From: an uncultured bacterium
GTDB lineage: Bacteria; Chloroflexota; Anaerolineae; J036; Brachytrichaceae
Length of the DNA stretch: 47,537 nucleotides
Direction: 5' to 3'
Assembly (NCBI GenBank): GCA_903921365.1
Contig: CAIXPS010000423.1
Span: forward strand, 1 to 47,537
The notes beneath the pieces are model-generated. The model was given only the letters and a program-made list of their open reading frames with translations. It did not search any database and had not been told where the DNA came from. Within the stretch, counting starts at the first letter, position 1. Every line of letters begins with the position of its first letter. Shown in pieces: positions 21,549 through 34,517 of this stretch. The position numbers and the translations under genes were made by a program.

Positions 21549-22049
21549 CTACTGGATCGTCACGCGACAGTCTTTTGGCGGGTTGCTGCGGCAGGTGAGC
21601 GTCAACCTCGCCGTCTTGTTATCGTCGGCGTTAAAAATGCTCAACATCAAGGGTTCGTCGCCGGGGAGCGTCTGAGCCACGTCAAAGGCATCCTTCCTGT
21701 TCTGCCTGAGGTCGACGTCCACGGTCGTCGCGGCTGTGACCAGATGAAGGCCGAGTTTACGCGTCGGCATCGCCGATTGCCCGATATCATAGGCGCACGA
21801 GCGGTTCGCCGGGACGACAAATACCCGATTGCCCGAATCCAGGCACGCGGCTGGCGTCCCTGTTGCCGGGCGCAATTCACCCAGGTTGAGCCGCGTGCTG
21901 AACAGCGAATTGAGCGAACTCGCCGACAGGTCCGAGACGCTCACTTTTGGCGGCGGGGCGCCTTTACCGCGCTGCCCGGCGATAATCCCGAAGATGAATA
22001 CGATGACGAGCGCGATCAGAAGAATAAATAACAGTTTCTGTGTGTTCAT
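21549..22049 (-). CDS. Single-pass membrane-anchored protein at the end of the injection-system operon
   Basis: A 166-residue protein with one N-terminal membrane helix (about residues 7-24) and an exported remainder. The soluble part has three Cys (CLDSG, RSCAYD, LTCRS/DCRVT region) and no recognised family. It lies 66 bp after the Ig-like membrane protein gene on the same strand, with a GGTGAG Shine-Dalgarno, so it is probably the last gene of the contractile injection operon. It could be a third envelope anchor or an accessory protein. Function unknown. Confidence 0.7.
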   Translation of the reverse strand: MNTQKLLFILLIALVIVFIFGIIAGQRGKGAPPPKVSVSDLSASSLNSLFSTRLNLGELRPATGTPAACLDSGNRVFVVPANRSCAYDIGQSAMPTRKLGLHLVTAATTVDVDLRQNRKDAFDVAQTLPGDEPLMLSIFNADDNKTARLTLTCRSNPPKDCRVTIQ

Positions 22050-22115: not shown

Positions 22116-23081
22116 CTACGGTGCAACCAGTGTAATCTTCAGCACCTTGTCGCGGATATCGATCGGTATCTTGATGATTAAAGACGGGCGACACGGCACA
22201 GGCTGGCTCGACCCGTTTCGCCAGCCGCACCAGTCATTGGTCGTGTTCCAGGAACCTTGGAATTGCTGATCGTTGCCGGACAGAGACCATACAAATGCGC
22301 CGCCGGACGCGCCTGACCGCCACTGTCCGGTAAGCGTGTTCCCAGATACAAAACCGCTGATGGCGCCTGTGGCGCTACCGTTAAAGAATGTGCCGACGAC
22401 GTTGATCCCGCTCTGCATCAGATCCGTCGCAGCGCCAGCGCCTTGTCCGTTACCTGCCAAGTTCCAATGTCCGTTGAAGTTGCCGATGGGCGCCGGCGTG
22501 GGTGTGCGCGTTGGCGTTGCGGCAGGTGTAGGCGTGGAGGTGGGTGTAGGCGTGCCCGTCGGCGTCGCTGTGCCCGTTGCTGTGGGGGGCGATGTCGGTG
22601 TTGGAGTAACTGGAGGCGCGGGCGGCGGCTTCAAAATGACGACGGCGCCAACGATCAACACGATCGCGGCGACGACAATCACCGGTATCCACCATGGGAA
22701 AGGCTTGGCAGGCGGTGGCGTTGCAGGAACGGTGAATGTAATGCTGGGGCCAGTCACCAGTGTGTCATCGGGGTTAGCGTCGTCCCATACATCAAACCGG
22801 AATGTGTAGTTGCCCGCTGCGCCTGTCTCTGGAACGGTGATCTGCACCGTGTATTGCAGCGACTCCGCAATCTTGAACTCGCGCATCCCCTCTGGGTCAA
22901 GTTTCAGCCACTTGCCATAGGAAGCCGTCGCGTCGGGCAGCAATGTCAACCGCGCGGCCGCGCGCGTCAGGGGACGCCCGCTGACATTATTTACGGTGAA
23001 CTGGACGCGCCCCTTGCGCGTGTCGTCCAGAATGATGGTGTTGCTGGGTGGGTTAGGGATATCAAAAAGCACATTGGGCAT
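22116..23081 (-). CDS. Ig-like domain + TM + Pro/Thr linker + beta-rich domain protein
   Basis: A 321-residue protein. The N-terminal domain (about 1-120) is an Ig-like beta-sandwich with WDDANPDDTLVTGPSITFTV. A membrane helix follows at about 130-150 (FPWWIPVIVVAAIVLIVGAV). Residues 151-199 are a Pro/Thr repeat linker. The C-terminal ~120 residues form a Gly/Trp/Ser-rich beta domain with SGNTLTGQWRSG. No signal peptide precedes the Ig domain, so an N-in topology with an external C-terminal domain is likely. The first 150 residues are clearly paralogous to the upstream gene; the C-terminal parts are unrelated. GGAG precedes the ATG. Likely an accessory or anchor of the contractile system. Confidence 0.72.
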   Translation of the reverse strand: MPNVLFDIPNPPSNTIILDDTRKGRVQFTVNNVSGRPLTRAAARLTLLPDATASYGKWLKLDPEGMREFKIAESLQYTVQITVPETGAAGNYTFRFDVWDDANPDDTLVTGPSITFTVPATPPPAKPFPWWIPVIVVAAIVLIVGAVVILKPPPAPPVTPTPTSPPTATGTATPTGTPTPTSTPTPAATPTRTPTPAPIGNFNGHWNLAGNGQGAGAATDLMQSGINVVGTFFNGSATGAISGFVSGNTLTGQWRSGASGGAFVWSLSGNDQQFQGSWNTTNDWCGWRNGSSQPVPCRPSLIIKIPIDIRDKVLKITLVAP

Positions 23082-23127: not shown

Positions 23128-24261
23128 TCATGGAAAGCGCATCTCTACCACACCGTTTTGCGCGTTTGGCGGCGTGCCGGCGTGAATTCCGAAAAACAGC
23201 GGGTGATCTTTGGCGACATCCGTCACCGTATAGGAAAATGCGCCGTCGCCGTTGTTGGGGCGTATCAACCCGGCGGTGTTTCCGCCAAAGCGCGTGAGCG
23301 TAAATACGGCATTCGACGGCGCACCGGACGTCCTCGCTGCGACCGTTCCTTCGCGCGTTGCTGCAATCACGAATATGAGATCGGCCTCCTGTGGGGTGAC
23401 GTTAAAGGGGTCTTCCACGTTCTCACCCGCACCTGTGGCGCCTGGATACTTGATGAGAACCACGCCCTTTGCGGACGTATTTGCGCCCGTCGTTCTGATC
23501 GATACCATCCACGTGTCGCTGTTGCGCACATCGGCATCCGTGATATCAAGAAGCGCCGGTGTGAACACACCTCCGCTCAACTGTCCCTTTGCCACTGCAT
23601 TGCCGGCGCCTGTCAGAATCTGAAACTCCACCGAGTCTGTGGCGTTTGCCAGTTTTGCGGCTACCTCGATCCGTCCCGGTCGCGTAATGCGCAACACGTA
23701 GGATGTGTTATTGCCGCCTTTCATAGTGAGCGGCGCACGCCACAGCGTCGTCGCGCCTCCTGGCGTGATCGGCGGCGTCGGGGTGACAGTCGTCCCGCCC
23801 AAACCCTGGCTGATGACAATTGCGCCGACGATCAGAACGATCACTGCAACCGCCACGACCGGTATCCACCATGGAAACGGCGCCGGCTTTTTTACTGCCA
23901 GTTGCGCCAGCGTAATTGTGACACTCGGGCCTGTCATCAGCGTGTCGTCGGGGTTGGCGTCATCCCAGACCGATAGCGCAAACGTGTAGCTTCCTGGCGC
24001 GGCTGTATCCGGCGCTTCGATCTGGATCGTGTACTGCTGAACACCCGCGATGCCATACTCCCTGTACCCGGCGGGATCAAGCGTGAGCCACGCGCTATAG
24101 GGGGCGGACTGATCCGGGAGCGGAACAGGCCGAGCGTCCGTCCGTCGTAGCGGGCGGCCGCTGATATTGGTGACTGTGTATTGCACGACGCCCTTGCGAT
24201 TTTTATCAAGGACGATCGCATTTGAAGGCGGCGATGGGATGTCAAAGAGTTTATCGGGCAT
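23128..24261 (-). CDS. Ig-like domain + TM + large extracytoplasmic domain protein
   Basis: A 377-residue paralogue of the downstream gene. The N-terminal Ig-like domain (about 1-120, WDDANPDDTLMTGPSVTITL) and membrane helix (about 131-151) match it closely. The 220-residue C-terminal part, though, is a different beta-rich region with two repeats resembling bacterial pre-peptidase/lectin-like sandwiches (YVLRITRPGRIEVAAKL, WMVSIRTTG). The N-terminal domain lacks an export signal and probably faces the cytoplasm, where it could touch the injection particle. It lies 59 bp after the tail-I gene in the same operon. Role inferred from position. Confidence 0.72.
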   Translation of the reverse strand: MPDKLFDIPSPPSNAIVLDKNRKGVVQYTVTNISGRPLRRTDARPVPLPDQSAPYSAWLTLDPAGYREYGIAGVQQYTIQIEAPDTAAPGSYTFALSVWDDANPDDTLMTGPSVTITLAQLAVKKPAPFPWWIPVVAVAVIVLIVGAIVISQGLGGTTVTPTPPITPGGATTLWRAPLTMKGGNNTSYVLRITRPGRIEVAAKLANATDSVEFQILTGAGNAVAKGQLSGGVFTPALLDITDADVRNSDTWMVSIRTTGANTSAKGVVLIKYPGATGAGENVEDPFNVTPQEADLIFVIAATREGTVAARTSGAPSNAVFTLTRFGGNTAGLIRPNNGDGAFSYTVTDVAKDHPLFFGIHAGTPPNAQNGVVEMRFP

Positions 24262-24320: not shown

Positions 24321-24872
24321 TCAGGGCAGATACTGCACTTCTGCGGTCACATAGACAGGTTTCTCATATTGCACGATGCGTTCCACCACATCGCGATACG
24401 CCGAGGCCTCCTTCGGCGCGACGATGCGAATGTGAAATGGGATCGGGAGGTCATTCGACCCCTGCGGCCGTTCCTCAATGCGGAAACCGCTTACGCCCGT
24501 GGCGGTTTGCAGAAAGAACAGCAGCGCCTCGGCCGTGCCGCGCCGTTGCGACAACAATGGCGCGCCGGCGACGAGGGCGCGCAACCGTCCCAGGTCGATG
24601 GGCAACTGTGACAGCCACTCTCCCGTGACAGGTGATTGCAGCAACCAGCCCAGGTCGACCCAGATCGCCAGGAATCGGACGAACTCCGGCTCTGCAACGG
24701 TCGGGTTGAAATAGGCCCACAGACTCGCCAGCACGCGCTCATCCGGCTCGTGCAGGCCGGACATCACTTCCAGGAGGGCGTAGAGCGGCGAGCCCTTCAA
24801 TGTATCAGGGTCGCACACACTGGTGCGCTGAAAGATGCCGGGCAGCAACCGCTCAATCTCGGATCGTTTCAT
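24321..24872 (-). CDS. Phage tail protein I-like baseplate protein of a contractile injection system
   Basis: A 183-residue protein of the TIGR02242-like tail family (Afp12-like baseplate component). Shared features are LLPGIFQRT near the N-terminus, LLEVMSGLHEPDERVL, FLAIWVDLGWLL and the RRGTAEALLFFLQTATG helix, then a short beta end. It pairs with the J-type protein to form the baseplate wedge. It overlaps the preceding J gene by 20 bp and is read from the ATG at 24872, a coupled arrangement typical of these operons. Confidence 0.85.
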   Translation of the reverse strand: MKRSEIERLLPGIFQRTSVCDPDTLKGSPLYALLEVMSGLHEPDERVLASLWAYFNPTVAEPEFVRFLAIWVDLGWLLQSPVTGEWLSQLPIDLGRLRALVAGAPLLSQRRGTAEALLFFLQTATGVSGFRIEERPQGSNDLPIPFHIRIVAPKEASAYRDVVERIVQYEKPVYVTAEVQYLP

Positions 24873-27504
24873 TTTCTTCGCTCACCTGTATGTCATGATC
24901 GCCTGACACAAACAGCCAGTTGTCGGGCAGCGTCACATTGTCGATGCTCGTCTTGTCGCGCGCAGGCGTGTAGGCGTCGCCGCCGTCCCGGCTGATATAC
25001 ACGCCGGTGCTGCCACCCATCATGATGATGGATGTGTCGCCAGCGGGCGAGGTCGCGACCGTTTCAATGCGCTGAAACTGGGTATTGACCCGACCGGCGC
25101 CGGTGATCTGTTCGGTGGGCAATCCACTGCGGATCATATCCGAGGGCTGCCAGGCCGGACTGGTATCGGATGTGTCCAGCCGCAAGACGCCCGCCCGGCG
25201 CGAGGCGGCGAACACCTCCGAGCCCTGGAACGCCAGTTCCAGACAGCTCCCGCCAACCCAGCGCGATCCAAATGCGTTCCAGCTATCGGGCGGATACTGT
25301 GTCCCGCGCAATTCCCAGCGCCAGCAGCCGTCCCCAGGGACATCGCCTTCCGCTGCAGCGCCTGCCCACAGGAAGGCGCGCGAGCCTTGCACCTGCACAG
25401 CCAACGAGCGAATATTTTTTCCCTTCAGCGTTGGCACAGTGGCCCCTGGAATCTCAGCAGGGTGGAAAGTGCCCGTCTTGCCGCCATCGCTCGAAATGTA
25501 AATGCCGCTGCTTCCATCGGCGACAAGAGCCACATTTGTAATACCGAGTGCATCTGTATAGGAGACGACGGAGTTAAATCCCTTGTCCTGGGCGAGACCG
25601 CGGTCAACCAGAAGCTGCACCGGGTTATGTCCTGGTCGGACATCGAGTTCAAACAGCCCCTTCTCGGTGGCTAACAGCAGGTACGGTGTGTTGTCGCGCT
25701 TCGTCCATGCCATATCCTGCACAATGGCGCTGATCGACCAGCCGGGCATTTCCCAGTTTTCACCGCAATCACGCGAGATCACTACGCGCGATCCCGCGCC
25801 GTTGGTGAAGCGGCTGGCGATTGCAATGAACCCCGGTTGAGCTGCGCCGCAGGCTCTGACTACGCTCACTACCTCGCTACTCGTCAAGAGCCCGACGGCT
25901 TCCCAGCCGTAGCCATCGTTGAGCGATCGGAATATTGTCGCTCCACTGCCTGCATACCAGGTTCTGGGTTGCGCGCCATCCGGCACGATGGAAAGCGTCG
26001 CCTGATCGGGCGCCTGATCCACCACCAGCCGGAGCTGTTCGACGTAACTCACTCCCGGCTCGCGCAGGACGAGGTCGTAGATGACCGAACTGCGCAACGC
26101 CCGACCGAACTGCCCGCTGTATGGGCTGATAGTCGCGTTCAATCGGTCGATCAAGCGCTTTTTCACGCTGTCGGGGTTTTCCTCGCGACGGACAACCACA
26201 TGCGCGGTGACGTGAACGACCTTAAAGCGAACCCAGTTGACCACACAACTGATTCCGAGTGGACGCCGCCCGTCAATCGCCTTCTGTGCCTGCGTGAGGA
26301 TGTCAGGGTTCTGATAGGTATTGATAGTGTCGATTGTCAATGGGACGCCGTCAGGCACGCTCGGCGCCAGCAATACCTCAACCGTGCCCGGTTCTGCAAA
26401 TGACCATACTTCTTTGCGTGTATAGGCGCGCGCGCGTTTTACGGCTGGCGAACTATTCAACGCAGTGACCTCAAAGTCGCCTGCCGTCACCGCCCGCTGC
26501 AGAGAGCGGAATTGCTGCGGCCCGCGGAGGAGAGCGTTCTCCAGCGTTTCCACAGCCCGGCCGCCGTACGAGGGGGCGGGGTTGGCGACCTGGATGCCGC
26601 TGAGGTTCATGACAGTCGTCAGCGTTCCCGCTGCCACGTTCCCTTCAGCGCCGCCGCCGCTGCGGTACCACGCGCGGATCTGCCGCCCTTTGACAGGCGC
26701 AGCCGCCATGCGCGCGGGGGTGTCGGTCAGCGCCGTTGAACCTTCCGCGCCCTGCGCGGTTTTCTGTTCGATGCGCAATGCCGGCGCGAAGAAGATCGCC
26801 CCGGATGCGCGATCGACAGTGTAGATGGCGTCGTCCGGCCCGGTAGATTCGGCGAAGCTCTCCGCCTCGCGCCAGAGACGATACGTCTTACCGTCATACT
26901 GGATAGCGGGGGCCCGTGAAGTAATCTCTCCGGGCAACGCTTCGACGCCGATGACCAGCTCGATCTTGTCGGCCATCGGCGCAACGATCGGAGGGCGTTT
27001 CACTACACACGAAAGCCCGGGTTGTCCCGTGCCGGTTCCGAGCAATTCCGCCTCAATGGGGCGGCAGTGATACGCGGCAATCTGTGTTTTGGCAATGCCT
27101 GTCGGAATCGTCACCGGTTCAAGCGTCACAAAGATGGGAGCGCTTGTCGCGGTTCCGCCGCGGCCGGTGGTCACGCTGGTCCCGCGCGGGATGACCACAT
27201 CACGGTCTACTGCGCCGGCCCGGCTGAACTCCAGCATCACGCCGGCAGCCGCTGACGAATACAGGTGGATGCCAAGCAGGCGCAGGAACTCGATGTACAC
27301 CTTCTGCGGCACCCGGTTCAGCCGGTAGATCATGACCTCGGTCAGATGCGCAAACAGTTCCAGCAGAATGATGCCGGGGTCGCTCGGGGTGAGGTCAGTC
27401 CATTCCACCGTCGATTGGGAGAACTGCGTGAAGCGTTCCTTAGCCTCATTCAGCAATTGGTCAAAATTGCGATCGTCCAGGTTAGGAGTTGGAATATCAA
27501 CCAT
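24853..27504 (-). CDS. Baseplate J-type protein fused to an Asp-box beta-propeller
   Basis: An 883-residue protein in two halves. Residues 1 to about 510 match putative baseplate assembly proteins of extracellular contractile injection systems (Afp11/TIGR02243 type): TPSDPGIILLELFAHLTEVMIYRLN, then the J core to YVEQLRL. Residues about 515-883 contain repeated Asp-box motifs of BNR/sortilin-type propellers (SLNDGYGWE, SRDCGENWE, SSDGGKTGT, SRDGGDAYT). The first gives the wedge scaffold; the propeller would sit on the baseplate periphery and may bind glycans or substitute for a fibre. The ATG shares one base with the gp25 stop (TGATG). The junction lies in the middle of one uninterrupted frame. 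Confidence 0.87.
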   Translation of the reverse strand: MVDIPTPNLDDRNFDQLLNEAKERFTQFSQSTVEWTDLTPSDPGIILLELFAHLTEVMIYRLNRVPQKVYIEFLRLLGIHLYSSAAAGVMLEFSRAGAVDRDVVIPRGTSVTTGRGGTATSAPIFVTLEPVTIPTGIAKTQIAAYHCRPIEAELLGTGTGQPGLSCVVKRPPIVAPMADKIELVIGVEALPGEITSRAPAIQYDGKTYRLWREAESFAESTGPDDAIYTVDRASGAIFFAPALRIEQKTAQGAEGSTALTDTPARMAAAPVKGRQIRAWYRSGGGAEGNVAAGTLTTVMNLSGIQVANPAPSYGGRAVETLENALLRGPQQFRSLQRAVTAGDFEVTALNSSPAVKRARAYTRKEVWSFAEPGTVEVLLAPSVPDGVPLTIDTINTYQNPDILTQAQKAIDGRRPLGISCVVNWVRFKVVHVTAHVVVRREENPDSVKKRLIDRLNATISPYSGQFGRALRSSVIYDLVLREPGVSYVEQLRLVVDQAPDQATLSIVPDGAQPRTWYAGSGATIFRSLNDGYGWEAVGLLTSSEVVSVVRACGAAQPGFIAIASRFTNGAGSRVVISRDCGENWEMPGWSISAIVQDMAWTKRDNTPYLLLATEKGLFELDVRPGHNPVQLLVDRGLAQDKGFNSVVSYTDALGITNVALVADGSSGIYISSDGGKTGTFHPAEIPGATVPTLKGKNIRSLAVQVQGSRAFLWAGAAAEGDVPGDGCWRWELRGTQYPPDSWNAFGSRWVGGSCLELAFQGSEVFAASRRAGVLRLDTSDTSPAWQPSDMIRSGLPTEQITGAGRVNTQFQRIETVATSPAGDTSIIMMGGSTGVYISRDGGDAYTPARDKTSIDNVTLPDNWLFVSGDHDIQVSEENETIRD

Positions 27505-27974
27505 CAGATTTTCTCTCCGGCCAGACTGACGGCGATGGTCAGGGGTTCGATGTGCAGTGTCGCGCGGACGCGATACGCCAGTTGGATGTTCAGCTGTTCC
27601 GGCGCCTCTGGGTCGCGCCCGGCGTCCAGCGCCACGATGTCAACGCGTGGTTCCCACTTTTCGATGGCGCGACGGATGTAGTGGATCGCCAACCCGGCCG
27701 TAGTGTCATCGTTAGGCGAGAAGATCAGGCGATGCAGATCGCACCCATAGTCCGGGCGCATGATGCGTTCTCCCGGGATGGTGAACAGCAGGATCAGAAT
27801 GGCCTGGCGGATGGCCTCGTTGCCATCGACCATGCCGATCCCGCCACGCGCCGATAACTGCAAGCCGGGCGCAACCGGCGCTGTGTCCATCATGACGCCG
27901 CTAGAGGACGCGTAGTAGTCCTCCATGTCGGGCAGGATGAATTGCCAGGCGCGATAAGGGGTGCGTTTGTTCAC
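27504..27974 (-). CDS. gp25-like baseplate protein of a contractile injection system
   Basis: A 156-residue GPW/gp25 family wedge protein (Afp9-like). Diagnostic stretches are NEAIRQAILILLFTIPGER, RPDYGCDLHRLIFSPN and HYIRRAIEKWEPRV, with the EPR segment seen across the family. It starts inside the end of the previous gene (4-bp ATGA overlap) and its stop overlaps the start of the J gene, so the three are translationally coupled. Confidence 0.92.
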   Translation of the reverse strand: MNKRTPYRAWQFILPDMEDYYASSSGVMMDTAPVAPGLQLSARGGIGMVDGNEAIRQAILILLFTIPGERIMRPDYGCDLHRLIFSPNDDTTAGLAIHYIRRAIEKWEPRVDIVALDAGRDPEAPEQLNIQLAYRVRATLHIEPLTIAVSLAGEKI

Positions 27975-28321
27975 GCGGCGCCCTCTGCCAACAGATCCTG
28001 GCCAGGAGTGCGCACTTTGTATTGCACGTTGGCGCCCGCCCAGTCCGTCAGCCCGGTGACGGCATCAAGGCATATGCGATGCCCGTCGATGCGGACGAGA
28101 TCCGAGTACCCGCTGGTGACTTTGAGCGACAGGGTGCATGGCTTAATCGTCGGGGTCGCCATGGTGCAGCCCTTGATTGCCTTGCGTTCCGGGTCGGCCT
28201 CCACCAGAATCGGGCGACCAGCGATCGTCACCCACTTCTGGCTGGGCTGGTTAGTCACGATGCCGGTCTGATGATTGCACACCAGCACCGCTTGATCGGT
28301 CAGTATTTTTAGTAATTGCAT
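27971..28321 (-). CDS. Probable PAAR-like spike-tip protein
   Basis: A 116-residue small protein with no strong standard motif. It begins with VLVCNHQTGIVTNQPSQKWVT and has three further Cys (KGC, KPC and RICLD). Its position, directly after the VgrG-like spike gene and before gp25, is where PAAR or PAAR-like tip proteins are encoded in these systems. Beta-rich character and small size fit a tip. Sequence alone does not prove it. The 2-bp gap to the spike gene and 4-bp overlap with gp25 show tight coupling. Confidence 0.6.
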   Translation of the reverse strand: MQLLKILTDQAVLVCNHQTGIVTNQPSQKWVTIAGRPILVEADPERKAIKGCTMATPTIKPCTLSLKVTSGYSDLVRIDGHRICLDAVTGLTDWAGANVQYKVRTPGQDLLAEGAA

Positions 28322-28323
28322 GC

Positions 28324-29835
28324 TTATGCCCTGTTGAAGTCAATCGCTGCCGCGCTGATGGCGATCTGCTTGCCCGGCGCATCGATCTGCAGGTCGGCTG
28401 CGGCGTGAAAGCGCACTCCACCCGGCGCCAGGTCGATGAAGCTGCCGCTGTTATTTTCAAGATGAAGCGTGCCATTTGAGTCATCCATGCTGATGCGTTG
28501 GCCCTGCGGCGTCACAAACGTAAATCGCCGGCGCGCGCCATCGACGATGCCCACGTCGGGCGGTGATATCTGTCCATAGAATCCGCCCAGGACGACGCCA
28601 TGCGCCGGGTCTTCGTGCGCCAGCAGCATCAACACCAGGTCGCCGGCGGCGGGCAGCGCGATCACGCCTTTGTTCGGCCCCGCGCCGGGGACGACCACAC
28701 CCACCCAATCGGTTTCGACATCGGCGAAGGTAAGGAGCTTGACCCGCACGCGCCCTTGTTGAAAGGGATCATCAATCGCGCTGATGACGCCGGGGGTGAC
28801 GATTGTGCCAACCGGGCGCGCGACAGGCACAGGCGGGCGTGTGGATATTTCCGTCACATAGCCCATGCGGGAATCGATGGAGTGCGTCGCTTCCGACAGC
28901 ACATAGCGCCCGCTGACCTCCTGCGCAACGCCGCTGACGTCGATGCGCGTGCCGGGTCGCAGGCGCGGGTCCCCATCGGCCACACCCCACAACGTCACTT
29001 CCGTCGCCGCGCGCTGATCCAGGTCGGCCTGGGCAAGCTGCCCGGCGTGGATGTCGTTCTGCGCGATCGCATCGACGATGGTTCGATCTGCTGCGGCAGG
29101 AGTGGCGGAAACGTTCGCCGCGCGATTCGCGCGTGGACTGGTTGCGCTGCCCCGGAATGACTCGCCTTCGGTTGGGAACCATCCCTGCGCCTGGACGCCG
29201 ATCACGGCGGCATCGGTGTTTATCTCGATAGTCGCCTCGAACAGCGTATTGCCCAGTCCCAGCGCTATGGGAGCACCCATACCCTCAAGCGTCAGCAGAT
29301 GCAGCGCGCCCTCACGCGCGCTGAGATATAAACCAGAGCGTTCAGCCAGACGCACGAGAAACTGCCAGTCAGTCTCGCGCCCCTGGATCAACCACTGGTA
29401 TTCGGCGCCGTCATCTGTTGCCTCAACGCTTAACCCGATGTCGGCGCACACTTCGCGCGCGATATCGGCTACGGTTTTACCGGCGAATGTCCGCACCGTT
29501 TGGCGCTTGCGCAGGCGATGCAGTGCGTCGTAGGCGCGCACGCGCATCTGGCGCTCATTGGAAGCACTGTGCAGATATTCAACGGCGGTGACCTCGCCGC
29601 TGAACAGCACCGTTGTGTTTGTGCTGACCGTCACCGTGAGTTCAGCGCCGGGGCGAAGGCGCGAATCGATTCGCACTGTCTCTGCGCCAAGGCCAAAAGT
29701 GAGTTCACATTGCGCCGGGGCTGAGAGCCGCTGGGCAACATGCACCTTTTCCAGCATCCGCAGAGAGTCCGAGTCAGCCGGGCTGCCACTCACTGTCAGC
29801 GTGACCTCGGGCAGTGTGCTAATCCTCGGCGCCAT
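28324..29835 (-). CDS. VgrG-like spike protein (gpD/gp5 type)
   Basis: A 503-residue Afp8-type spike. The N-terminal half is the phage late control D-like region (gp27 fold) with QWLIQGRETDWQFLVRLAER. An OB-fold gp5-type domain covers about residues 345-430 (DDPFQQGRVRVKLL, WVGVVVPGAGPNKG, LPAAGDLVLMLLAHED). The C-terminal ~60 residues are a short beta-helix (ENNSGSFIDLAPGGVRFHAAADLQI). No extra effector domain is attached. It overlaps the LysM gene by 17 bp. Confidence 0.92.
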   Translation of the reverse strand: MAPRISTLPEVTLTVSGSPADSDSLRMLEKVHVAQRLSAPAQCELTFGLGAETVRIDSRLRPGAELTVTVSTNTTVLFSGEVTAVEYLHSASNERQMRVRAYDALHRLRKRQTVRTFAGKTVADIAREVCADIGLSVEATDDGAEYQWLIQGRETDWQFLVRLAERSGLYLSAREGALHLLTLEGMGAPIALGLGNTLFEATIEINTDAAVIGVQAQGWFPTEGESFRGSATSPRANRAANVSATPAAADRTIVDAIAQNDIHAGQLAQADLDQRAATEVTLWGVADGDPRLRPGTRIDVSGVAQEVSGRYVLSEATHSIDSRMGYVTEISTRPPVPVARPVGTIVTPGVISAIDDPFQQGRVRVKLLTFADVETDWVGVVVPGAGPNKGVIALPAAGDLVLMLLAHEDPAHGVVLGGFYGQISPPDVGIVDGARRRFTFVTPQGQRISMDDSNGTLHLENNSGSFIDLAPGGVRFHAAADLQIDAPGKQIAISAAAIDFNRA

Positions 29836-30625
29836 CAGTCACTCCTGGAACCTGCGGGATGCGCAAGAGGGTTCCTGTATCCAGGCGCAGAGGGTCATCG
29901 ATATCGTTGATCTTGGCCAGCAATCGCCAAATCGATGAGTTCTTGAAATAGCGATACGCGATCTCATCCAGGCGCTCAGAGGAGCCCGCATCTGCGCCGC
30001 TCGCGGCGACGTTTTCGTCACTGCCGCCCAATATCTCGTGCATCATGCCCGAATCGTCCGAGGGCGTATCGGACTGAGTTTTAGCCCACTCATCCAGCAG
30101 GGTGTTGGGCAAGCCGCCGCCTTTCTCGATCTCGCTGGCCGTCTGGCGCGCGGGTTCGTTCACACGCACCAGGCGCAGGCGCAACCACGACCGTTGTGGA
30201 GCGCCGCCGGGCGTGAACTCCTCCAGCCGCTCGGCAATGGCAGCCACGATGGCAGGCACGTTCCACGACTTGCCCCACACAAACCGCACGAGTGGGGGTT
30301 GGCGATAATTGGCAGAGCCGGAAGGCGTCGCGCTATTCTCCGACAGGCTCCACAAGGGGGCGGTCAGGTCGCGCACATCGTCGGATGTGATGGACGATCC
30401 CGCCAACTGGACATCGAAGAGCAGATCAAGTTCGAGTTCGGTGTGTCCCCCGCCGGTGTACAACAGCGTGTTCTCAATCTGCCCGGCCCCGGTCAGTTGC
30501 CCGCTCACGGACTGGCGCGAGCGCAACCCGGCTATTCGCCGTACGACCAGGCTTTCCGGGTTCAACAGGCACCCGATGCGCTGGTTGGTTTCCTCGATCA
30601 GGAAGGCGGCGCGTTCCATGGTCAA
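29819..30625 (-). CDS. LysM-containing baseplate hub protein (Afp7-like)
   Basis: A 268-residue protein whose N-terminal part (LLNPESLVVRRIAGLRSR, TELELDLLFDVQ) matches the gp53-like hub proteins of contractile injection systems. The C-terminal LysM-type segment (about 215-258) has LDEIAYRYFKNSSIWRLLAKIN and GTLLRIPQ. A Ser/Asp-rich linker separates them. The TTG at 30625 is preceded at a good distance by GAGGG; an ATG at 30619 is the alternative. LysM may hold the particle on murein or stabilise the hub. Confidence 0.87.
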   Translation of the reverse strand: MTMERAAFLIEETNQRIGCLLNPESLVVRRIAGLRSRQSVSGQLTGAGQIENTLLYTGGGHTELELDLLFDVQLAGSSITSDDVRDLTAPLWSLSENSATPSGSANYRQPPLVRFVWGKSWNVPAIVAAIAERLEEFTPGGAPQRSWLRLRLVRVNEPARQTASEIEKGGGLPNTLLDEWAKTQSDTPSDDSGMMHEILGGSDENVAASGADAGSSERLDEIAYRYFKNSSIWRLLAKINDIDDPLRLDTGTLLRIPQVPGVTDGAED

Positions 30626-30636
30626 CGGCTGAACCC

Positions 30637-32013
30637 TCAGCCTATGCCCTCCTGCTCACGCGCCAGCCGGCGCGCGTGCTCGTTCTCGCGGCTCTCGCTT
30701 TCGCTGTCTGCATCCTCCGCCCATACATTTACCGGGAGTTCGGGCCACTGGTTTGGTTGCGGGGCCATTGGCTCAAAGGGTTCCGCGGGTTTAACATGAC
30801 CCACTGGCGGCGCATCCATGCGTCCACGCCTGACTGCTACGATGGGTTGATGACTGCCGCGACTATCGCCACGGGCAGCGCGCCGCGACGTGGCTGCCAT
30901 CGTTCTTGGCAAATCGGGCGCCGCTTGACGCTGTGGTCGCGCGCGTTCAGCCGTTCCCCCATCCACCTCCACAGGCTTTCTCGCTACAGGATGCACGATT
31001 GTCGGCGCTGCCCGCGCGGCAGTCCCGATCGTCGTCCGCCGTAGCAGGCGCATATCAGCCAGTCTCCTTTTGGAAGTCGAGCCTTCAGGCGGTCGCACAG
31101 GGCTGTTGTTCACCCCCGCGTTGGAGGCCGAGCCTTCAGGCGGACGCACAAGGCTGTTGTTCACCTTTGCATTGGAGGCCGAGCCTTCAGGCGGAGGTTG
31201 CATCTCCCCACGACGAATCGCGCCACTTGCCTCATCCACCACCCGCTCACGATGACCCGCCACACCATCGCGCTTCACCCCTGCATTGGAGGCCGAGCCT
31301 TCAGGCGGATGCGTCACCCTGTGACGAATCGCGCCACCCGCCCCATCCTCCACCTGCTCACGATTTCCCGCCATGGCATCGCGCTTCACCTTCGCATTGG
31401 AGGCCGAGCCTTCGTGCGGAGGTTGCATCACCCCGCGACGAATCGCACCACTCGACTCATCCTCCACCCGCTCACGGTTATCCGCCACATCATCGCGCTT
31501 CATCTCCGCGTTGGAAGCCGCGCCTTCAGGCGATTGCGTCGCCCCACGACGAATCGCACCACTCACCCCACCTTCAACCCGCTCACGATGACCCGCCACC
31601 GCGCCACGCTTCACCTTTGCGTTGGAGGCCGAGCCTTCAGGCGGTTTTGTGCTGCGGATAGACCCTTCAGTCTCTGCGGTATTAGGAACGTCCGGCGGTT
31701 GTCCAGTCGCGTCATCTGGCGACGGAATAGTCACATCGAAGGTCTCGATGCGATCAGGGTTGGCGGCGCGACGCCGGATGTCTTCCAGCCAGTGGGCGGG
31801 CGGGCCGCTGCGCTGCACCCTGGCAAGCCAGTGGACAGGCGGCCCATCGCTGTTCACGGCAGGCTCTGGTAGTTCAACGGGAAATTCCTCGCCGGGTTCG
31901 ACCGCCAGACGCTGATCCATCGCATCCAGACGGCGCGCCGCGCCTGCGAACACGGTTTGTAACCCGTGCACAAGCGTGTGAGCCAATTGCCTGAAGCGGT
32001 CTGACGGCGTCAT
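30637..32013 (-). CDS. Repeat-rich, low-complexity protein between tube and LysM genes
   Basis: A 458-residue charged, apparently disordered protein. The N-terminal ~50 residues (RFRQLAHTLVHGLQTVFAG...) are helical and the end is rich in Arg and acidic residues. Between about residues 120 and 320 are tandem units beginning PPEGSASNA(K/G)V. Four units are 37-38 residues and contain KRD..AG.RE.VED..SGAIRRG; two are 17 residues. No family was recognised. Position in the operon suggests a structural role (linker or tape-measure-like), with copy number perhaps tunable by recombination. The opposite strand has long open frames that are shadows of the repeat. Confidence 0.75.
   Translation of the reverse strand: MTPSDRFRQLAHTLVHGLQTVFAGAARRLDAMDQRLAVEPGEEFPVELPEPAVNSDGPPVHWLARVQRSGPPAHWLEDIRRRAANPDRIETFDVTIPSPDDATGQPPDVPNTAETEGSIRSTKPPEGSASNAKVKRGAVAGHRERVEGGVSGAIRRGATQSPEGAASNAEMKRDDVADNRERVEDESSGAIRRGVMQPPHEGSASNAKVKRDAMAGNREQVEDGAGGAIRHRVTHPPEGSASNAGVKRDGVAGHRERVVDEASGAIRRGEMQPPPEGSASNAKVNNSLVRPPEGSASNAGVNNSPVRPPEGSTSKRRLADMRLLRRTTIGTAARAAPTIVHPVARKPVEVDGGTAERARPQRQAAPDLPRTMAATSRRAARGDSRGSHQPIVAVRRGRMDAPPVGHVKPAEPFEPMAPQPNQWPELPVNVWAEDADSESESRENEHARRLAREQEGIG
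31070..31644 (-). repeat. Seven-copy DNA repeat within the repeat-rich gene
   Basis: The 23-bp plus-strand sequence TTGGAGGCCGAGCCTTCAGG plus CGG, with few changes, starts at 31070, 31121, 31172, 31286, 31397, 31511 and 31622. Spacing is 51, 51, 114, 111, 114 and 111 bp, always a multiple of three. The minus strand within it contains two overlapping palindromes (GCCTGAAGGC and AGGCTCGGCCT), like small mobile palindromic elements that insert in frame. Confidence 0.9.
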
Positions 32014-32033: not shown

Positions 32034-32471
32034 TTACGCCCTTTGCAGCGTCTCGTACACCAGCGTGAGGCTCTCAATCGCCACTTCGCTTGACAGTCCG
32101 TTCAGGATCGAGCCGCGCCACTGGCTCGGCCAGGCATTGACCAGGTCCCAGCGCATCACTTCCGCCACGCTGTCGCTGTCGAGCAACAGGATCGAGCAGT
32201 TGCGACGCGCGACCTTGCCGTTGACGGCGGTCATAAACCAGTCGTACAACTCGCGTGATGCCGTCAACCCATAGCGCAGGGTGATGGGCGAATATTCGAC
32301 ATATCCCGGAACCGTATGCACGAACGGGCGCATCCCGCCCTCGCGATATGCGATCGTCTGCACATTGATCCCAATGCCGCTGATTTCGGTGAAGTGCGCT
32401 TCGGTGATGTTCGGCTGGAAGGTCAGCTTAAAGTTATAGGCGCGATACGGATCGATTACTTGATCAGGCAT
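32034..32471 (-). CDS. Contractile injection system tube protein (gp19-like)
   Basis: A 145-residue tail tube protein of the TIGR02241/Afp1 type. Typical pieces are YNFKLTF, HFTEISGIG, YREGG, ITLRYGLTASRELYDWF and WPSQW, with a C-terminal ESLTLVYETLQRA. It forms the inner tube of the particle. It starts two bases after the sheath stop, and GGGAGG lies just within the end of the sheath gene. Only one tube gene is present. Confidence 0.93.
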   Translation of the reverse strand: MPDQVIDPYRAYNFKLTFQPNITEAHFTEISGIGINVQTIAYREGGMRPFVHTVPGYVEYSPITLRYGLTASRELYDWFMTAVNGKVARRNCSILLLDSDSVAEVMRWDLVNAWPSQWRGSILNGLSSEVAIESLTLVYETLQRA

Positions 32472-32473
32472 GA

Positions 32474-33736
32474 TTAACCTCCCAGATTCTCAGTCTGCAC
32501 GCCTTCGGCATACTGGCTGATGCGAAAGACGACGAATTCGGCGGGTTTTACTGGCGCGACACCGATGATGACGACCACCTGTCCGGCGTCGATCACCTCG
32601 GGCGGGTTGGTTTCCGCATCGCATTTGACGAAGAAGGCTTGTTCGGCGCTCGCACCCATCAACGCCCCATCGCGCCACATGCGCATCAGGAAGGCCGAGA
32701 TGTCGCGACGAATCGACTTCCACAGCGTCATATCGTTTGGCTCAAACACAATCCAGCGAGTGTTCAGCGCGATTGATTCTTCGATCATGTTGAACAAGCG
32801 TCGCACGTTGAGGTAGCGCCACTCGCTGGCCGATGCGGCCAGCGTGCGCGCGCCCCAGATGCGAATGCCTTCACGCGGGAAGGCCCGTATGCAGTTCACC
32901 CCTGCGCTATTGAGTTCGCCCTGCTCGGCGCGGGTCAGCGGATAACCCAGCCGCAACGCGCCACGGATCGCTTCGTTGGCAGGCGCTTTGTGCACGCCGC
33001 GGGTGGCATCCGTGCGCGCCCATACGCCTGCGATATGTCCTGATGGCGGTGCCATCACCAGTGCATTGGCCTCCGAGGCATTTGGGTCAGGGTTGGCGGG
33101 CGGCAGCGGATCGCGCACCAGAATCCACGGGAAGTAGAAGGCGGCGTAACCGCCGTCGGATTGGCGCGGCTTCAACCCGGCCGGCTGAGGGTTTGAAGTA
33201 ACAGGCGCACCTGCTGGCGCGGGCGGCTCTGCGGTTACTTTCAACGCATCGATCCTGGTCGCATCGACATCGCGCGGCGCGTCCAGGATCGCGACGCGAT
33301 CTTTCAGTTTTTCGCAATGACTGATGACAGCGTTGTAAGAGGCCGCATCGGTGAGCCCCGGCGCGCACACAATGGCGATTTCGTCGACCTGTTCGAGTAG
33401 ATCAAGTCCGGTTTTTGTGCCAGGCGTGCCCTCGATGGGGTTGCCTGCCGGCACGTTGGCGATATAACAGCGCGTGCCTCCGTTCAGAAAGAAACCGTAC
33501 ACAGCCTGTGACAGATCCGTGCTGGCAAGCAGATGATCTTTGCCGCCAGCGCGCGCGGTGGCAAACTCGCGCACAAACTCAGACCAGTTATTGATCGGGT
33601 AGGCTTCGGTGAGATGCGCCCCCGTGTTTGGCGCAGCGCCTGCGAAGCCGGCAGTACTGGTCCCTACCGCCTCAATCGGCCGCGCGCCGGCGGAGACTTC
33701 CTCCACATAGATATCGGGTGCAAGGTAATTTGGCAT
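32474..33736 (-). CDS. Contractile injection system sheath protein
   Basis: A 420-residue phage-tail-sheath family protein that wraps the tube and contracts. The N-terminus PDIYVEEVSAGARPIEAVGTS and the C-terminal RRLFNMIEESIALNTRW, FNDMTLWKSIRRDISAFL-like helices and VVFRISQYAEGVQTENLGG arm are standard for the compact sheaths of these systems. A single sheath gene is encoded. AGGAGTG precedes the ATG, and a second promoter may lie in the 109 bp upstream. Confidence 0.95.
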   Translation of the reverse strand: MPNYLAPDIYVEEVSAGARPIEAVGTSTAGFAGAAPNTGAHLTEAYPINNWSEFVREFATARAGGKDHLLASTDLSQAVYGFFLNGGTRCYIANVPAGNPIEGTPGTKTGLDLLEQVDEIAIVCAPGLTDAASYNAVISHCEKLKDRVAILDAPRDVDATRIDALKVTAEPPAPAGAPVTSNPQPAGLKPRQSDGGYAAFYFPWILVRDPLPPANPDPNASEANALVMAPPSGHIAGVWARTDATRGVHKAPANEAIRGALRLGYPLTRAEQGELNSAGVNCIRAFPREGIRIWGARTLAASASEWRYLNVRRLFNMIEESIALNTRWIVFEPNDMTLWKSIRRDISAFLMRMWRDGALMGASAEQAFFVKCDAETNPPEVIDAGQVVVIIGVAPVKPAEFVVFRISQYAEGVQTENLGG

Positions 33737-33845: not shown

Positions 33846-34517
33846 TTACACAGGCTCGAACTGGATCACGACAGGTTTGGAGGCGTCGACGGTGACGTCG
33901 AACTGGCGCCCTTTCGCCAGGATGCGGATGTCTCGCTTTCCGCTCATCCCAGGCAAGCCGAGGAAACGGAATTGCCCGTTTGCATCGGTGTAGTTAAACA
34001 GTTGCAGGCCGGTGATCTCCACCCGCGCGCCAACAATCGGCAAGTCGCCCGGCCCGACAACTCGCCCGATGAGTTGCGACATCGGCTCGGTCTTGACCGA
34101 TAATGCCGAACGCACATACTCGACCCTGGCTTTGGGCCGTTCCTGGCGCACGGGCAGGCTTAACATAAATGCGGGTCGCGGCACGAGTTTGAGCGCCAGC
34201 CACGTCTCCGCCGGCAGCGGATCCAGATCGATGCTGAATTCTGACACGCCCATGGCAGCAAAGGCGAGATCACCGAGTAGCTGGTGCGCTTTTTGAGGTG
34301 TTGCAGCCCAGGTTGTGACGAGGTAGCGCAACAGGATCTGCAGCGGTGGGCGCTCATTGGTGCGCGGCGGCGGGCAATTGGCAAATGACAACAGGTACAG
34401 GCTGACGCCCTCTCCGGTTGGGGCGGGCGCATCCACAGGAAGCGCCAACGTTACCGTTGCATTCTCCACTGTCGCGCCTATCCAGGTGGACAGGCGCTCA
34501 TCGGTCAGATCAAGCAT
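33846..34517 (-). CDS. Cap-like DUF4255 (Pvc16 N) protein with carboxypeptidase-regulatory-like tail
   Basis: A 223-residue protein, first gene of the injection operon. Residues 1 to about 140 match the DUF4255/Afp16-type cap or terminator that ends the tube (SLYLLSFANCPP, PPLQILLRYLVTTWA, LGDLAFAAM). Residues about 147-223 form a CarboxypepD_reg-like beta domain (LIGRVVGPGDLPIVGARVEI, TDANGQFRFLGLPG). The extra domain is unusual for a cap and may contact the membrane or a partner. Weak Shine-Dalgarno. A good promoter lies about 110 bp upstream. Confidence 0.85.
   Translation of the reverse strand: MLDLTDERLSTWIGATVENATVTLALPVDAPAPTGEGVSLYLLSFANCPPPRTNERPPLQILLRYLVTTWAATPQKAHQLLGDLAFAAMGVSEFSIDLDPLPAETWLALKLVPRPAFMLSLPVRQERPKARVEYVRSALSVKTEPMSQLIGRVVGPGDLPIVGARVEITGLQLFNYTDANGQFRFLGLPGMSGKRDIRILAKGRQFDVTVDASKPVVIQFEPV

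Follow-up and report, generated by a model that had tools for sequence, protein, structure and literature searches.

In the contig CAIXPS010000423.1 of an uncultured Chloroflexota bacterium (the window, by which we mean the whole 47,537-nucleotide stretch analysed), the gene at 24853..27504 on the minus strand encodes a Cis11/Afp11-type baseplate wedge protein with a C-terminal extension that is probably an Asp-box beta-propeller. We propose that this propeller is a docking or sensing module of a fibre-less contractile injection system (CIS), most likely for a bitopic membrane protein encoded just downstream, and we put the probability of this reading at about one half. The propeller family offers a compact system in which to approach the question of how cytoplasmic CIS particles find and grip a membrane: throughout the class sample of 396 genomes, and with no exception there, a single baseplate add-on is tied to one family of membrane proteins. 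As the original prediction had supposed, no description of a propeller on Cis11 was found in the openly accessible literature, a scope that leaves out most subscription journals and in which absence is no proof. The known Cis11 add-ons, a cage and a C-terminal extension, would gain the propeller as a further type.

A baseplate wedge protein with a C-terminal Asp-box domain

The gene is one open frame of 883 aa, with its start ATG at 27504 and its stop at 24853-24855. Residues 1-493 (26026..27504, minus strand) are a complete Cis11/Afp11 baseplate wedge protein, so the earlier assignment of the N-terminal half to the baseplate proteins holds: Pfam Baseplate_J matches residues 285-473 (E 9e-14), the NCBIfam model TIGR02243 scores 208.3 bits against a curated cut-off of 155.8 and its end (658/659) is reached at residue 493, and the synteny of the gene, which lies between gp25 and P2_I, indicates the same identity. 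The best solved relative of this half is the Streptomyces coelicolor Cis11 (PDB 9gtp, E 9e-43, residues 4-133 and 208-492; PMC12237407), a homologous baseplate part from a fibre-less, free-floating cytoplasmic CIS. The S. coelicolor protein has 652 aa, no propeller and an internal domain at about 129-333 that is largely missing in the window protein, the 9gtp alignment showing the same gap. This domain of ~150 residues or more would fall between query residues ~133 and ~137 and corresponds to about residues 130-290 in other TIGR02243 family members. Among the J proteins compared it is present in 15 of 15 ordinary forms and in 0 of 20 propeller forms, so that propeller presence and internal-domain absence go together. 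Most ordinary Cis11 forms stop about 35-60 residues past the J part.

The sequence gives good support, short of proof, for identifying the C-terminal domain (residues ~500-883; 24856..26007, minus strand) as a beta-propeller, probably 7-bladed. Three Asp-boxes match the strict pattern [ST]x[DN]xGxx[WFY], namely SLNDGYGW at residues 527-534 (25903..25926), SRDCGENW at residues 577-584 (25753..25776) and SRDGGDAY at residues 838-845 (24970..24993), and a fourth, SSDGGKTG at residues 671-678 (25471..25494), matches a relaxed motif, all on the minus strand. The predicted fusion of a J-type baseplate protein with 'four or more' Asp-boxes in one gene is thus borne out, with four counted and none in the N-terminal part. 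When the C-terminal residues were shuffled, the mean count was 0.07 strict and 0.38 relaxed, and the observed count was reached in 0 of 2000 shuffles for the strict pattern and in ~1 of 2000 for the relaxed one. Among PDB structures, a profile of 12 homologous C-terminal domains picks out the BNR-repeat protein 3b7f (E 5e-9) as well as xyloglucanases and sortilin, and single family members match Sortilin-Vps10, BNR and Ycf48-type models, the window protein itself lying below the curated cut-offs. The domain shares its Asp-boxes and blade pattern with the BNR/Asp-box and sortilin-Vps10 propellers (3b7f, 6p2k, 2cn2, 3f6k); it differs from them in being fused to a baseplate protein and in being known from sequence. 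In a leave-one-blade-out comparison of the proposed 7-blade division, four blades are clearly self-similar (exceeding the 95th percentile of shuffles in 75-100% of sequences) and the remaining three weakly so (exceeding it in 30-45%), and the domain presumably includes blades that lack an Asp-box. It ends in a conserved tail, W-FVSG-HD. Two cysteines stand out, one nearly invariant at residue 580 (DCGE) and one invariant at residue 754 (GGSC).

Could the fusion be an artefact, either a frame error that joined two adjacent genes or Asp-box-like motifs that arose by chance in a non-propeller domain? We consider this very improbable. AlphaFold2 gives no confident model, the predicted local distance difference test (pLDDT) score being 33 for the full protein alone and 38 for the C-terminal domain with one orthologue, and these models are too poor to use; the window protein's own matches to BNR-type models of Pfam likewise stay below cut-off. 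Structure prediction, one of the checks named in the original prediction, leaves the propeller fold unconfirmed, and it is the sequence profiles, with their matches to PDB propellers at 5e-9, that support it. A Foldseek search with the pLDDT 38 model returned many propellers among its top matches, but with E values of at least 3e-3 and a TM-score of ~0.2, and we discount it as evidence. The fusion itself recurs in 18 genomes and 5 plasmid records, with 31-76% identity in the C-terminal part and with a coding region that briefly overlaps or directly abuts both neighbouring genes, and RefSeq annotates it as one protein (e.g., WP_042465634.1). The recurrence of the same single open reading frame across genomes and plasmids rules out a frame-error origin.

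The propeller form is a minority type. TIGR02243 Cis11 occurs in 125 of the 396 class genomes and the fusion in 12 (in G236 the gene is cut at the contig end, so that the propeller part alone is read). The proposed architecture search across Chloroflexota thus finds further members, including six genomes elsewhere in the phylum, one of which carries the gene in pieces, and it extends beyond the phylum: the fusion lies on plasmids of Deinococcus sp. AJ005, Rhodovulum sp. MB263, R. sulfidophilum and Paracoccus sp. MC1862 (5 plasmid records), whose homologues are 33-40% identical over 98-100% of the length. These copies rule out a Chloroflexota peculiarity. Where complete, the one-frame homologues have about 820-1016 aa. 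A tree built from the J part groups all 20 propeller forms in a single clade (100/100, one change), set apart from 15 ordinary forms taken from Chloroflexota, Streptomyces, Deinococcus, Roseomonas, Oscillatoria and Paenibacillus; the sampling does not fix the root. The clade stands separately beside the S. clavuligerus, D. grandis and Chloroflexota forms in this tree, which has no defined IId outgroup. The CIS of Roseiflexus and of other Chloroflexota and Deinococcota (PMC12998442) come from the same phyla, are intracellular and belong to the IId lineage, and the available text of that paper does not describe a propeller type; in D. grandis, which it studies, Cis11 is of the ordinary kind, 684 aa long and lacking a propeller. 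Two scans of viral contigs gave no further relatives of the fusion, and a phage collection gave ordinary phage J proteins only. Separately, in several genomes of the class TIGR02243 also matches very long frames (870-2151 aa), often with two adjacent J parts, at G367:C242, G338:C313, G256:C69 and G216:C546, which are a different, enlarged Cis11 arrangement.

The propeller is linked to a bitopic membrane protein

A bitopic membrane protein is encoded downstream in 18 of the 19 propeller operons examined, right after Tail_P2_I or, in one group, after a small membrane protein. In the window this is membrane protein 1 (23128..24261, minus strand; 377 aa), the proposed docking partner, with the conserved N-terminal domain, a transmembrane (TM) segment at residues 133-151 and a putatively outer C-terminal domain; the next gene encodes membrane protein 2 (22116..23081, minus strand; 321 aa), which has the same N-terminal domain and a TM segment at residues 132-150. 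Across the family, a conserved N-terminal domain of ~120 residues with a K-P-F-P-W-W-like motif precedes one TM helix near residue 130. The part beyond the helix is variable, about 50 to 1600 residues long, and carries PASTA in several phyla and DUF11 or LamG in others. Since the proteins lack a signal at the N-terminus and most of their positive charges precede the TM helix (over the set, 58 Lys or Arg before it versus 31 after), the topology is predicted to be N-in/C-out, which would make the N-terminal domain cytoplasmic; PASTA lies on the far side. By far the longest members of the family, at ~1790 aa, follow the propeller Cis11 in two genomes, at loci L069 (3236-8617) and L070 (3279-8657).

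In the class sample the propeller fusion is strictly linked to this membrane protein. When the 396 genomes were searched with a profile covering the N-terminal domain and the TM helix, the family appeared in 12 of 12 propeller genomes versus 1 of 384 others (Fisher 5e-22), and at E <= 1e-8 in 0 of the 113 class genomes that have ordinary Cis11 only. The sole apparent exception, G004, has the membrane protein and no baseplate gene, and is explained by a contig that breaks off immediately upstream of the genes for the membrane protein. A weaker resemblance (E 1e-7 to 1e-4) to Ig-like membrane proteins is seen in two ordinary loci.

Docking, receptor binding or structural replacement

How might a propeller on the baseplate function? 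The protein is best explained as the Cis11 wedge subunit of a fibre-less CIS that has gained a probable Asp-box propeller at its C-terminus and lacks the internal domain seen in its Cis11 relatives. The baseplate would then be encircled by six to twelve propellers, which would provide a membrane- or target-facing docking surface in the role of tail fibres. Their partner would most likely be the bitopic membrane protein encoded just downstream, whose N-terminal domain, predicted to be cytoplasmic, would tether the loaded particle to the cytoplasmic membrane and whose variable outer part, in many cases PASTA, DUF11 or LamG, would sense the condition of the envelope and relay a firing signal. We infer a cytoplasmic particle, its location, the copy number of the propellers, their contact with the membrane protein and the transfer of the signal. 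Carriers among cultured bacteria, for example Rhodovulum sulfidophilum DSM 1374, whose operon lies on plasmid NZ_CP015419.1, make the docking idea directly testable.

The docking ring is proposed because a C-terminal Cis11 add-on and a bitopic neighbour combine features of precedents in which docking roles of Cis11 extensions are known or proposed; the arrangement would be analogous to the Cis11-Cis13 pair of Anabaena and to CisA of Streptomyces. According to the available text of PMC8894136, in the thylakoid-anchored CIS (tCIS) of Anabaena (PDB 7b5h) Cis11 (All3317, 1231 aa) likewise has a C-terminal extension, which contacts Cis13, and the TM domain of Cis13 positions the particle. This Cis11 has additional domains for the cage and for contact with Cis12, and the tCIS also has crown proteins and a Cis13 that resembles a fibre, neither of which is recognisable in the window operon; All3317 matches the window protein only in a short, weak stretch around the J domain, and that text reports no propeller for it. 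Similarly, Alg11 of AlgoCIS (PDB 7aeb; PMC13314943) is a Cis11 with added domains, a cage for which sensing of a second receptor and triggering of firing are proposed. It differs in its length of 1050 aa, in a J-domain match at 773-880 of the chain, in the putative carbohydrate-binding modules of its cage and in the presence of tail fibres.

No tail-fibre gene was recognised downstream of the baseplate genes with Pfam, the dedicated eBAP fibre-anchoring profiles not having been applied. This fits the original suggestion that the propeller replaces a tail fibre; the accompanying idea that it binds glycan or peptidoglycan is disfavoured by the membrane-protein linkage. The membrane protein is the more likely partner because this linkage is exceptionless in the class sample and because the closest solved relative belongs to a cytoplasmic CIS, and peptidoglycan contact, if any, would more likely be made by the membrane protein than by the baseplate. 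A broader version of the docking proposal, which we hold only tentatively, is that a new CIS lineage in Chloroflexota, Deinococcota and Alphaproteobacteria, partly on plasmids, may dock a propeller ring at its own cytoplasmic membrane on a PASTA membrane protein that reads peptidoglycan. Such docking, if true, would be a cell-wall-coupled firing trigger independent of CisA and Cis13.

Several points weigh against the docking proposal. First, we infer both the binding of propeller to membrane protein and the cytoplasmic location of any propeller-type system. Second, the fold stands unconfirmed at AlphaFold2 pLDDT values of 33-38, with Foldseek propeller matches that are weak and come from a poor model. 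Third, in one propeller operon, L098, no gene for the membrane protein could be recognised within the part that was read. Fourth, a tree-distance comparison points towards docking but falls short of significance once corrected: propeller and membrane-protein N-terminal domain correlate, given J, with r 0.32 and a p of 0.04 that fails correction for eight comparisons; the positive control (J versus P2_I) gave r 0.48, p 0.0015, and the negative control (propeller versus P2_I) r 0.00. Finally, no sequence similarity could be detected between this family of membrane proteins and the S. clavuligerus protein encoded at the CisA position. By sequence prediction it does have CisA-like traits, being bitopic and N-in/C-out and encoded just downstream of the baseplate genes; the CisA of S. 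coelicolor differs by a long, disordered stretch in the cytoplasm and, if this S. clavuligerus positional counterpart is taken as a guide, shows no sequence similarity to the window membrane protein. As a CisA homologue, the membrane protein was rejected for want of sequence support in this comparison. CisA of Streptomyces is itself unconfirmed as a direct binder, and Roseiflexus is without close CisA homologues, as far as the available texts of PMC12237407 and PMC12998442 go.

Alternatively, the particle might be a released extracellular CIS (eCIS) whose propeller is a receptor-binding domain for glycans or proteins of foreign cells, and the membrane protein might then serve as an effector, an immunity factor or a release factor. 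Lectins of the propeller type are known from eCIS, where they are reported in the tail fibres and not in Cis11 (PMC12923769), and the AlgoCIS Cis11 cage has two putative carbohydrate-binding modules with a proposed second-receptor contact (PMC13314943). The propeller profile also resembles BNR glycosidases and xyloglucanases, but no Pfam or NCBIfam glycosidase model scores above cut-off for the domain. The sequence of the propeller is well conserved across phyla (31-50% identity, with invariant W/G motifs), unlike receptor-binding tips, which usually diversify. Strict coupling of the operon to a bitopic membrane protein, together with a closest solved relative that is cytoplasmic and fibre-less, further argues against release, and we regard this alternative as unlikely.

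The coincidence of propeller presence with internal-domain absence invites a different explanation, in which the propeller is a structural replacement for the missing domain, a spike cage or wedge staple that binds nothing outside the particle. Other Cis11 extensions cage the spike (PMC13314943 and, in its available text, PMC8894136), and the VgrG-like spike is shorter in propeller loci, at about 490-570 aa versus about 550-620 aa in most other loci. Such a replacement would leave the exclusive linkage to one membrane-protein family unexplained. Moreover, in the available account of the tCIS the C-terminal extension of Cis11 is the part that contacts the membrane-anchored Cis13, and it is a separate extra domain that forms the cage. 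We judge the purely structural role to be unlikely as well.

The operon and its surroundings

The operon is a contractile injection system and not a prophage, since it unites sheath, tube, Cis7, spike, gp25, J and P2_I genes and no capsid or terminase genes were recognised in its surroundings; the flanks hold metabolic and signalling genes. The order of these seven genes is kept across 19 loci. In the window all operon genes lie on the minus strand. They begin with a cap protein, Cis16 (33846..34517), in which a Pvc16_N domain (E 3e-5, just under cut-off) is joined to a carboxypeptidase-regulatory-like domain, followed by the contractile sheath protein Cis2 (32474..33736), identified by Pfam scan, and the inner tube protein (32034..32471; Pfam T4 gp19, E 2e-36). 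The latter is the sole tube gene of this operon type: there is exactly one in 15 of 15 propeller loci, versus mostly two or more in other loci. Next come the CIS tube initiator Cis7 (29819..30625; Pfam CIS_tube, E 1.5e-9), the VgrG-like spike Cis8 (28324..29835; Phage_GPD and Phage_base_V), a protein at the PAAR position of the spike tip, Cis10 (27971..28321), which has no Pfam match and is assigned by position and by conservation in 18 loci, and the gp25-like sheath initiator Cis9 (27504..27974; Pfam GPW_gp25, E 6e-25). Beyond the propeller Cis11, the Tail_P2_I-like baseplate protein (24321..24872) occupies the Cis12 position; its Pfam match (E 0.0015) is below cut-off, and the gene is syntenic in 19 of 19 loci. 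No gene scanned in the window has a Pfam match to the Afp15-like AAA ATPase, which is not universal in such clusters and may lie elsewhere, and PADLOC returned nothing.

Between the tube and Cis7 genes lies a low-complexity protein of 458 aa (30637..32013, minus strand), with many near-identical repeats of the PPEGSASNAKVKR type. A counterpart occupies the same place in most propeller operons, and the protein could be a spike plug, a length ruler or a cargo carrier. At the operon end, a small protein of 166 aa with an N-terminal TM segment (21549..22049, minus strand) is conserved in position, with homologues in 13 propeller loci and in 0 of the other loci examined. The source genome also has a second CIS on another contig (L071, G000:C23:36000-55900), with an ordinary 705-aa Cis11 that has no propeller and, downstream, a different gene set that includes FHA-like genes.

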